Source of the DNA: Gemmatimonadota bacterium
GTDB lineage: Bacteria > Gemmatimonadota > Gemmatimonadetes > Longimicrobiales > Gaopeijiaceae
Length of the DNA stretch: 43,604 nucleotides
Assembly: GCA_007126575.1 (NCBI GenBank)
Contig: SLBA01000044.1
Coordinates: forward strand, 1-43,604
Direction: 5' to 3'
Below, piece after piece: positions 18,258 through 20,775 of this stretch. The notes below the pieces were generated by a model, which saw only the letters and a list, made by a program, of their open reading frames with translations, was not told the origin of the DNA and searched no databases. Positions within the stretch are counted from its first letter, which is position 1; the number at the start of each line of letters is the position of its first letter. The position numbers and the translations under genes were made by a program.

Positions 18258-18674
18258 ATGCGGGAACGGGATGAGACGCCATACTTCGTGATTGAACGAG
18301 AGGGTGGGAGTTCGGGGGTCGGGGCTTTCCTGGCCGGTGCGCTGCTCGGCGCCGGGGTCGCTCTGCTCTTTGCTCCCCGCACGGGCGAGGAGACGCAGCG
18401 GGAAATTCGGGAGCGGGCCACCCACCTGAAGGAGTCGGCCGAGGAGCGCATGCGCGAGGCGCAGAAGCAGGTCGAGGATCGACTCGACCAGGCGCGCACG
18501 GAGCTGATGGACCGGGTCGATGCCGTGCGGGAAGCGGTCGAGTCGGGGAAGGACTCCGCCCGTGAGGCGCGTGGGGAACTAGAAGAGAAGATCGAGCGCT
18601 CCAAGGCGGCCGCTCGGGCCGGCGTCGATGCCGCTCGCGAGGAGGCCAAGAAGAAAGGGGAGGCGTCGGACTGA
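18258..18674 (+). CDS. YtxH-domain protein
   Basis: A 138-residue protein with a short polar N-terminus, one hydrophobic Gly/Ala-rich segment (GVGAFLAGALLGAGVALLFAP, about residues 21-41) followed by RTGEETQREI, the hallmark of YtxH proteins, and then a long charged helix (about 45-138) rich in Glu, Arg and Ala with coiled-coil character. YtxH proteins are membrane-anchored and stress-linked in some species; molecular function is unknown. GGGAG precedes the start. The stop TGA overlaps the CTG proposed as the start of the next gene, implying translational coupling. Confidence 0.85.
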   Translation: MRERDETPYFVIEREGGSSGVGAFLAGALLGAGVALLFAPRTGEETQREIRERATHLKESAEERMREAQKQVEDRLDQARTELMDRVDAVREAVESGKDSAREARGELEEKIERSKAAARAGVDAAREEAKKKGEASD

Positions 18675-20239
18675 GTTCTCGCCCCTGGTCGAAGATCTGG
18701 CAGGAGTCCCGGAGCTTTTCGAAGGAACTCGGGCAGCGCCTGGCACGGAGCGACCTCTTCTTCATGGCGGGGGCGATCACCTTCAACGTGATGGTGGCGA
18801 TCGTCCCCCTCCTGATCCTGACGGCGGGTGTGGCCGGCTTCTTCGTCACGACCCGCTTCGGACAGGTGGAGCCCGAGGTCGTCGAGGTCGTGCTCGGCTA
18901 TCTTCCCGCAACGGGCGCGAACGGGCTTCGGGAGACGGTGGACCGGGTTCTGGAGGGCCTGGTCTCGGATCGGACCGGCCTCTCGATCGTGGGTGGCGTG
19001 GTCTTGGCATGGATCTCGACCCGACTGGTCGCGAGCCTTCGGATCGTCCTGCGGAACCTCTTTCACGAAGAAGAGGATCGGGGTCTGGTGCGGGGCAAGC
19101 TCTTCGATCTGCAGGTCGTGGTCCTGGCCGGGACCCTGATCGTGGTGAACTTCGCGGTCACGATCGCGATCCGAACGGTCGAGGCCCTCGGGCTCGTCTT
19201 CCTCGGTCCGGAGGCGCGGGCGGCCGCGATTCTGCAGTGGGGCGTCGGATGGGGGCTCTCGCTGGCCTCCGCCTGGATCCTCTTTTTTCTCCTGTACCGT
19301 TACCTTCCGGCTCGGAAGGTGGCCTTTCGTACCGCCGTCGCAGGTGCCACATTTGCAGCGGTGGGCTTCGAACTCCTGAAGGGGGCCTTCGCCTGGTACG
19401 TGACGCAGGTCGCGGATTACTCGTCGGCCTACGGAAGCCTGGCGGTGGCGGCCATCCTCTTCTTCTGGATCTATTACAGCGCCGTGCTCTTCATTCTGGG
19501 CGGAATCGTGGCCCGGACCTACGAGGTGCGACGGGAGGCAATCATGGAACGAAAGAAATCCGAGGCCACGGGGTCGGGGAGCGCCGCCGGTGGCGCCGCC
19601 CTGATGATCCTGCTCACGATCGCGGCGACTGCCTTCATGGCGATTCCAGCCGGTGCGCAGAGCTTCGCGCCCTTCGGTGGGAACGGCAACGCCGGCGGCC
19701 TTCTGGATTCCGGTGACGGCGTGGTGTACGCCTCGCGCTCGCTCGAGCGCGAGATGGTGCTCGACCGGCCGCTGGTCGACCACGACGGGCCCTATGTGGT
19801 CGTGCACATCGCCGAAAACCGGGTTCTGGTGCTCGAGGGCACCGAGGTGGTCTGGTCCGCTCAGGCCGGGACCGGCCACGGCTTCCAGCTCGCCGAGCAG
19901 GGGCGGGAGTGGACGTTCACGACACCGGTCGGGATGTTCCGGGTCCTGCGACGCGAGAAGGACCCCGTCTGGATTGCTCCGGACTGGTACTTCATCCAGA
20001 ACGGGATGTCGATTCCGGCGCAGAATCACCCGAGTCGCTACATCCCGAACACCCTGGGAACGTCGGCCCTGTACCTGGGCGACGGGATTGCGATTCACGG
20101 CACCGATCGGCCCCATCTCCTCCTGGACCCGGACCCCGAGTCCCGCCGGATCTCACACGGCTGCATTCGACTGACGAACGAAGCGGCCCGGCAGCTGTAT
20201 CATCGAGTCGAGGTGGGAACGCCCGTCCTGATCTTCTGA
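18671..20239 (+). CDS. Fusion of YihY/BrkB-family membrane protein and L,D-transpeptidase
   Basis: One uninterrupted frame holds two proteins. Residues about 1-290 are a YihY/UPF0761 (formerly BrkB) six-helix membrane protein: AGAITFNVMVAIVPLL, then helices near VVLAWISTRL, VVVLAGTLIVVNF, WILFFLLYRYLP, and SSAYGSLAVAAILFFWIYYSAV. After a short cytoplasmic linker (VRREAIMERKK) a seventh hydrophobic stretch with a signal-peptide-like end (PAGAQS) leads to a YkuD L,D-transpeptidase domain with HGTDRPH and the catalytic ISHGCIRLTN (Cys498), predicted periplasmic, acting on peptidoglycan or attached proteins. The first ATG (18764) falls inside helix 1; CTG 18671, with GGGGAGG seven bases upstream and overlapping the YtxH stop, restores the N-terminal amphipathic segment, giving 522 residues. 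Confidence 0.82.
   Translation: MSSRPWSKIWQESRSFSKELGQRLARSDLFFMAGAITFNVMVAIVPLLILTAGVAGFFVTTRFGQVEPEVVEVVLGYLPATGANGLRETVDRVLEGLVSDRTGLSIVGGVVLAWISTRLVASLRIVLRNLFHEEEDRGLVRGKLFDLQVVVLAGTLIVVNFAVTIAIRTVEALGLVFLGPEARAAAILQWGVGWGLSLASAWILFFLLYRYLPARKVAFRTAVAGATFAAVGFELLKGAFAWYVTQVADYSSAYGSLAVAAILFFWIYYSAVLFILGGIVARTYEVRREAIMERKKSEATGSGSAAGGAALMILLTIAATAFMAIPAGAQSFAPFGGNGNAGGLLDSGDGVVYASRSLEREMVLDRPLVDHDGPYVVVHIAENRVLVLEGTEVVWSAQAGTGHGFQLAEQGREWTFTTPVGMFRVLRREKDPVWIAPDWYFIQNGMSIPAQNHPSRYIPNTLGTSALYLGDGIAIHGTDRPHLLLDPDPESRRISHGCIRLTNEAARQLYHRVEVGTPVLIF
19533..19546 (+). promoter_or_regulatory. Internal ribosome binding site and in-frame start for a free L,D-transpeptidase
   Basis: GGGAGG (19533-19538) stands five bases before an in-frame ATG (19544). 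Initiation here would give a 231-residue protein with a basic start (MERKKSE), a hydrophobic core and an AGAQS cleavage site, i.e. a normal secreted YkuD transpeptidase (Cys207 in this numbering), without the YihY half. Confidence 0.6.
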
Positions 20240-20301
20240 CACCCAGGAGACCGCGGCGTGCCGGATTCGCGTGAGGTCACATTGCAGGCAAGGGAGTGGG
20301 G

Positions 20302-20775
20302 ATGGGTGAGCCGTCGGGAGGGCACCGCACGGTTGCGACGAACCGGAAGGCCCGGCACGAATATCACATTCTGGACCAGTGGGAGGCCGGGATGGTTCTC
20401 ACGGGACCCGAGGTGAAGTCGCTTCGCGATGGGAAGGTCGGGTTCCAAGACGCCTTCGCGCGGGTGGACGGCGGCGAGGTCTGGCTCCACAACCTTCACA
20501 TCTCCCCCTACATGCAGGCCAACCGCTGGAACGACGACCCGATGCGGACCCGCAAGCTGCTCCTGAAGAACAGCGAGATCCGGAAGCTGATCGGGCAGGT
20601 CGATGAAAAGGGGCTCGCCCTGATCCCACTCGAGATCTACTTCAAGCGCGGATACGCCAAGGTGCGGATCGCCCTGGCACGGGGCAAGAAGCTGCACGAC
20701 AAGCGCGAGACGCTGAAGCGCCGGACGCAGGAGAGGGAGACACGGCGGGCGATCGACTCCGGGGGCCGGCAATGA
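20302..20775 (+). CDS. smpB: SsrA-binding protein
   Basis: A 157-residue SmpB, the tmRNA partner in rescue of stalled ribosomes. Typical stretches are TNRKARHEYHILDQWEAGMVLTGPEVKSLR split as the N-terminal OB-fold strands, LHNLHISPY, the RKLLLKNSEI region, IPLEIYFKRGYAKVRIALARGKKLHDKRE and a basic C-terminal tail that enters the decoding centre. ATG 20302 is preceded by AGGGAG (20291-20296). The stop overlaps the amidase start (ATGA). The ssrA RNA gene is not seen in the window. Confidence 0.95.
   Translation: MGEPSGGHRTVATNRKARHEYHILDQWEAGMVLTGPEVKSLRDGKVGFQDAFARVDGGEVWLHNLHISPYMQANRWNDDPMRTRKLLLKNSEIRKLIGQVDEKGLALIPLEIYFKRGYAKVRIALARGKKLHDKRETLKRRTQERETRRAIDSGGRQ

Follow-up and report, generated by a model that had tools for sequence, protein, structure and literature searches.

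Among the closest described systems is FbcH of Bradyrhizobium, a cytochrome b/c1 precursor in which a polytopic membrane protein is followed, in frame, by a secreted protein with a cleavable signal peptide of its own. Genes within genes, arising by in-frame internal initiation in bacteria, are a theme discussed in PMC11005335. Here we describe a Gemmatimonadota locus in which yihY and ykuD share one open frame. The locus is like FbcH in joining a polytopic membrane protein to an in-frame secreted protein with a predicted internal signal peptide; however, the proteins are different ones, and the fusions also conserve an in-frame internal start. With genes within genes it shares a second in-frame start that would yield a C-terminal protein; in contrast, the second start in yihY-ykuD once began a separate gene, and the short form has a signal peptide of its own. 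The nested in-frame gene and the precursor with an internal signal peptide are known kinds—what is new here is a conserved fusion that retains the start of its second gene.

The two halves of the frame belong to described families. The C-terminal half has the catalytic domain, the H-G-T motif and the SHGCIRL motif of the YkuD-family L,D-transpeptidases (PF03734), and the Sec-type signal peptide carried by its separate relatives is a further likeness; the difference is that the window enzyme occupies the C-terminal end of a frame that encodes a polytopic membrane protein. The N-terminal half agrees with the poorly understood YihY/BrkB family (PF03631, TIGR00765) in its full-length domain, six helices and conserved motifs; however, it lacks a stop codon of its own, and a signal peptide and an enzyme come after it. 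Another YihY fusion is catalogued as NCBIfam PRK04214, with a C-terminal domain that is unknown. None of the papers searched links YihY with YkuD or with transpeptidases.

The fused frame and its neighbours

The window—the whole stretch of 43,604 nucleotides that was analysed—is contig C192 of a 3.68 Mb genome in 205 contigs; the named relatives are uncultured Gemmatimonadota, many of them from sediment assemblies. The features discussed below are as follows.

18258..18674, + strand: ytxH-like gene (Pfam PF12732, E 7.7e-17) upstream of the fusion, its stop overlapping the fusion start (CTGA)
18671..20239, + strand: yihY-ykuD fused open frame, 522 aa, kept in 17 species
18671..18673, + strand: probable CTG start of the full-length product, with Shine-Dalgarno GGGGAGG upstream, no ATG/GTG/TTG before the conserved DLFF motif, and the CTGA overlap also in relatives
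18749..19531, + strand: YihY/BrkB domain (PF03631) with six membrane helices (AlphaFold model)
19533..19538, + strand: internal Shine-Dalgarno GGGAGG, duplex energy -10.3 kcal/mol
19544..19546, + strand: internal ATG (residue 292), the retained transpeptidase start codon; invariant Met, 17/17 at +39 nt after the GG motif
19544..19657, + strand: signal-peptide-like segment with a short hydrophobic core, cleavage by signal peptidase I being predicted behind A329; all 19 fusions have [ALV]-x-[AGS]↓Q
19790..20233, + strand: YkuD L,D-transpeptidase catalytic domain (PF03734; Foldseek matches to solved L,D-transpeptidases)
20153..20164, + strand: catalytic SHGC motif, read from the sequence and invariant in the alignment
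20296..20775, + strand: smpB, the conserved downstream neighbour (PF01668, E 1.6e-59; synteny)

The frame runs stop-free through 522 codons. BrkB is matched at residues 27-287 (E 4.9e-48; 164.5 bits against a Pfam cut-off of 33.7) and YkuD at residues 374-521 (E 3.6e-23; 83.2 bits against 23.4). The H476-G-T and S495-H-G-C-I-R-L motifs are intact in the window gene and invariant in the alignment of 19 fusions, the catalytic cysteine being C498 of S495-C498, with H476 upstream. In the AlphaFold model the BrkB part forms six long helices, the signal-peptide region is a 13-residue helix of low confidence followed by a disordered linker, and the YkuD fold matches solved L,D-transpeptidases in Foldseek; no solved structure resembling YihY was found by sequence or fold search. 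The first-pass annotation had described a single frame joining a six-helix YihY domain to a YkuD domain with an SHGC motif, and the open frame, Pfam, AlphaFold and Foldseek all bear this out: the window gene is YihY/BrkB plus a YkuD-type L,D-transpeptidase in a single frame. The same genome also carries a second, distant YihY paralog (G000:C129:2529-3329; about 28% identity), which is unfused.

Synteny comparison finds the arrangement ytxH - yihY - ykuD - smpB - amidase in three families of the order, including this one, which argues that the adjacent yihY/ykuD pair is ancestral. The block from ytxH to the amidase is flanked at its two ends by pgi and pyrD, where the fetched stretches extend so far. 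Across the family (L087-L093), the interval between the conserved neighbours ytxH and smpB holds yihY, ykuD, both, or the fusion—as if each of the two genes could be dropped cleanly from it.

No ATG, GTG or TTG precedes the BrkB domain in the window frame, and CTG 18671, which overlaps the ytxH stop and has a strong Shine-Dalgarno sequence, is most likely the start of the full-length product. Ten fusions and several separate pairs show the CTGA overlap as well, and in seven fused rows with upstream sequence present no other usual start precedes the DLFF motif. A gene finder restricted to ATG/GTG/TTG would clip the window frame to 18764; given a CTG start with none of the usual options, common gene finders will shorten the protein.

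Age, origins and losses of the fusion

The same fusion is present in 17 species from 11 genera of one Gemmatimonadota family, separately assembled and down to 52% identity, and the tree places the 17 in one clade with a support of 100/100. Two more fusions of the same pair arose independently in the family (L037 and L038), for 19 in total; sequence comparison thereby establishes the fusion itself, which is old and repeated. The fused state has also been left by three lineages nested in the main clade, two of them now lacking one half: G111 has re-split, yihY is gone from G033, and the transpeptidase gene is gone from G034, both losses falling at the one position between ytxH and smpB. No fusion outside the family appeared among the matches listed for 395 Gemmatimonadota genomes, and none was found in plasmids.

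The fragmentation of the window assembly into 205 contigs speaks for an assembly or sequencing error, or for a very recent stop loss in this one genome; the same frame in 17 separately assembled species rules this out, and we give it practically no credence. A recent loss of the stop between two adjacent genes had been the alternative offered in the first-pass annotation, and it is refuted by a fusion that is common to 11 genera and arose by a frame change. That annotation had also proposed searching relatives for fusions and for separate pairs, and had set against its own reading the possibility that relatives always have two separate genes—the search returned the 17-species fusion, together with adjacent separate pairs elsewhere in the order.

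In the rest of the order yihY and ykuD are separate but adjacent. In 30 of the 36 separate pairs the transpeptidase start (ATG, GTG or TTG) and the yihY stop share 4 nt or 1 nt; the usual overlap is 4 nt, with the enzyme start at -4 of the yihY stop. Distances were counted from the conserved GG that ends helix 6 to the transpeptidase start. Nearly every separate pair gives a value of 2 mod 3: most pairs from other families stand at +59, and most from this family at +68 or above. In 17/17 fusions the distance to the ATG is exactly +39 nt, or 0 mod 3; the comparison argues that the frames were joined by a net shift of about 20 bases, or by some equivalent change, that left the start in place. 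The fusion thus arose via a frame change and not by mutation of a stop codon. In one other locus, L014 (G012), the two genes share a frame and only one stop codon parts them, which leaves the locus a single step from fusion; the yihY there is unusually divergent, at about 32% identity.

The internal start, the joint frame and the fate of the products

We consider it probable that the locus is a nested in-frame gene, encoding a YihY-transpeptidase precursor and, from a start of its own, a secreted transpeptidase; one site would probably serve for the cleavage of both. Ancestrally, yihY and ykuD would have overlapped by four bases; a small net gain or loss of bases in the ancestor shared by the 11 genera would then have joined the frames, with the start signals of the second gene kept. 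Translation from CTG 18671, probably coupled to the termination of ytxH, would yield YihY, signal peptide and transpeptidase in one chain of about 55 kDa, and translation from ATG 19544 a pre-transpeptidase of 231 residues and about 24 kDa. With helix 6 of YihY ending in the cytoplasm and positive residues lying before the signal peptide, the transpeptidase of either product would come to lie in the periplasm; a cut at A329↓Q330 by signal peptidase I would leave both with the same enzyme of about 193 residues and about 21 kDa.

The internal start signals are conserved. GGGAGG at 19533-19538, a five-base spacer, the in-frame ATG at 19544 and a signal-peptide-like segment had been picked out at the junction in the window alone; all are confirmed, and a conserved in-frame start codon with a Shine-Dalgarno sequence, as expected of a nested gene, is found in 17/17. 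The internal Met is the sole invariant one among 40 Met-containing alignment columns, and its column takes zero parsimony steps on the tree, against 7 to 13 for each of the six columns after it. Shine-Dalgarno energies at the internal ATG range from -5.9 to -11.2 kcal/mol in the 17 fusions, while the 87 further in-frame ATGs in these genes average -2.5 (Mann-Whitney p 7e-10); the median of -8.3 is stronger than that at the separate genes' own starts (-6.95). Energies lie below the mean of synonymous shuffles in 16/17 fusions (Fisher combined p 3e-4), a figure to be read with the rows being related, not independent, and with part of the signal supplied by SD-like Arg/Glu codons that the protein sequence partly dictates.

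Chance is ruled out as the source of the ATG by the column conservation and these energies. That the Met is kept for YihY structure is unlikely, as it is lost where YihY remains: the residue is Ser in G034, which has lost the enzyme, and Gly in the re-split G111. In G033, where yihY is gone, V-R-R-x-x-R-M with a Shine-Dalgarno sequence and an ATG seems to mark the beginning of the stand-alone enzyme, and this lineage likely retains the old start segment, the DNA alignment there being weak. These comparisons indicate that the internal start is under selection, and we infer that initiation takes place at ATG 19544. If the CTG is weak and the internal ATG strong, the short product would be made in preference to the long one.

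The same invariant ATG and strong Shine-Dalgarno sequence also suit a different account, in which the two separate mature proteins are all that matters and the joint frame is translational coupling in a harmless form; most of the enzyme would be started internally, and the long chain would be a by-product, cut or degraded. The expected weakness of the CTG start, the cleavage motif retained in 19/19 fusions and the three exits within the clade, by re-splitting or loss of either half, agree with it. The joint frame itself is harder to reconcile with this account. The 13 codons between the GG motif and the ATG contain zero stops in the 17 species that keep the internal ATG, and a rough estimate, from a tree length of 5.8 changes per site for the clade, puts the neutral expectation at about 5 or more, in a range of 5 to 47. 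In addition, the n-region is relaxed as if the fusion supplied its charge: counted from the internal ATG it has a median length of 17 in fusions and 10 in separate genes, and 6/17 fusions, against 0/36 separate genes, have a net charge no higher than zero there; with the five preceding fusion residues included, 16/17 n-regions are positive. The internally started form may therefore be exported less well in some species, which speaks against the nested-gene reading. The missing stops and the relaxed n-region suggest that the joint frame is probably under selection too; with the same pair having fused three times, we regard harmless coupling as unlikely.

Where the products end up depends on the signal segment, which closes with A-x-A↓Q at residues 327-330 in the window gene. 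By a simple -3/-1 rule, [ALV]-x-[AGS]↓Q follows a short hydrophobic core in 19/19 fusions—a predicted internal signal peptide of the FbcH kind—and a like site is found in 35/36 separate genes; the Gln after the predicted cut is invariant in the alignment. The pattern is what signal peptidase I needs and would free the same mature enzyme from both products, and we infer that the fusion is cut there. The segment could instead serve as a seventh span, so that a stable fusion tethers the transpeptidase permanently to the inner membrane beside YihY and the internal ATG goes unused. Its mean hydrophobicity over 19 residues is slightly higher in fusions (1.99 against 1.72 in separate genes, p 0.001, the rows not being independent) and Leu at -3 is commoner, which could reflect a shift toward an uncut anchor or partial anchoring. 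One independent fusion, L037 (G103), whose sister L062 has separate genes, offers no usable ATG/GTG/TTG internal start before the signal segment; it counts against the nested gene and for the tether, and implies that fusion alone can be tolerated. A permanent tether would, however, leave an invariant ATG with its Shine-Dalgarno sequence unexplained; the short core, then a small residue before the invariant Gln, resembles a cleavage site, and the model has just a 13-residue helix there, at low confidence. We judge it improbable. The outcomes foreseen in the first-pass annotation, two products or a cut precursor, gain from the internal ATG, Shine-Dalgarno sequence and cleavage motif in 17 species; the stable seven-span tether that it also envisaged is possible but not favoured.

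YihY, cross-linking and the fate of fused genes

The fused gene is the only YkuD-type gene detected in the window's genus and the only YkuD-type domain detected in G000, G001, G002, G011 and G031, so the free enzyme likely matters in these genomes. The hope that a physical link to peptidoglycan cross-linking would be a clue to YihY has fared less well. The same pair fused three times is suggestive of a tie between YihY and peptidoglycan; however, in several other genera of the family just one of the two occupies this place, either yihY and no YkuD gene or this YkuD and no yihY. An obligate YihY-YkuD partnership is ruled out by these genera, and because of them the clue is weaker than it had seemed. 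A stronger proposal is that the two starts and the cleavage site set a balance of YihY-tethered and free periplasmic transpeptidase, with YihY positioning or controlling cross-linking. We hold this to be quite doubtful; if true, the repeated fusion of the pair would be a direct clue to YihY function.

The locus is a clear example of a gene fusion that does not erase the start of its second gene. Its relatives display the state before (an overlapping pair), the state after (the fusion), re-splitting, and loss of either half, all at one conserved place, and the system offers a simple test of whether a fused frame is a precursor, a tether, or just tight coupling. With three fusions of the pair, whether YihY is tied physically or functionally to peptidoglycan cross-linking becomes a testable question, though the genes also occur apart.
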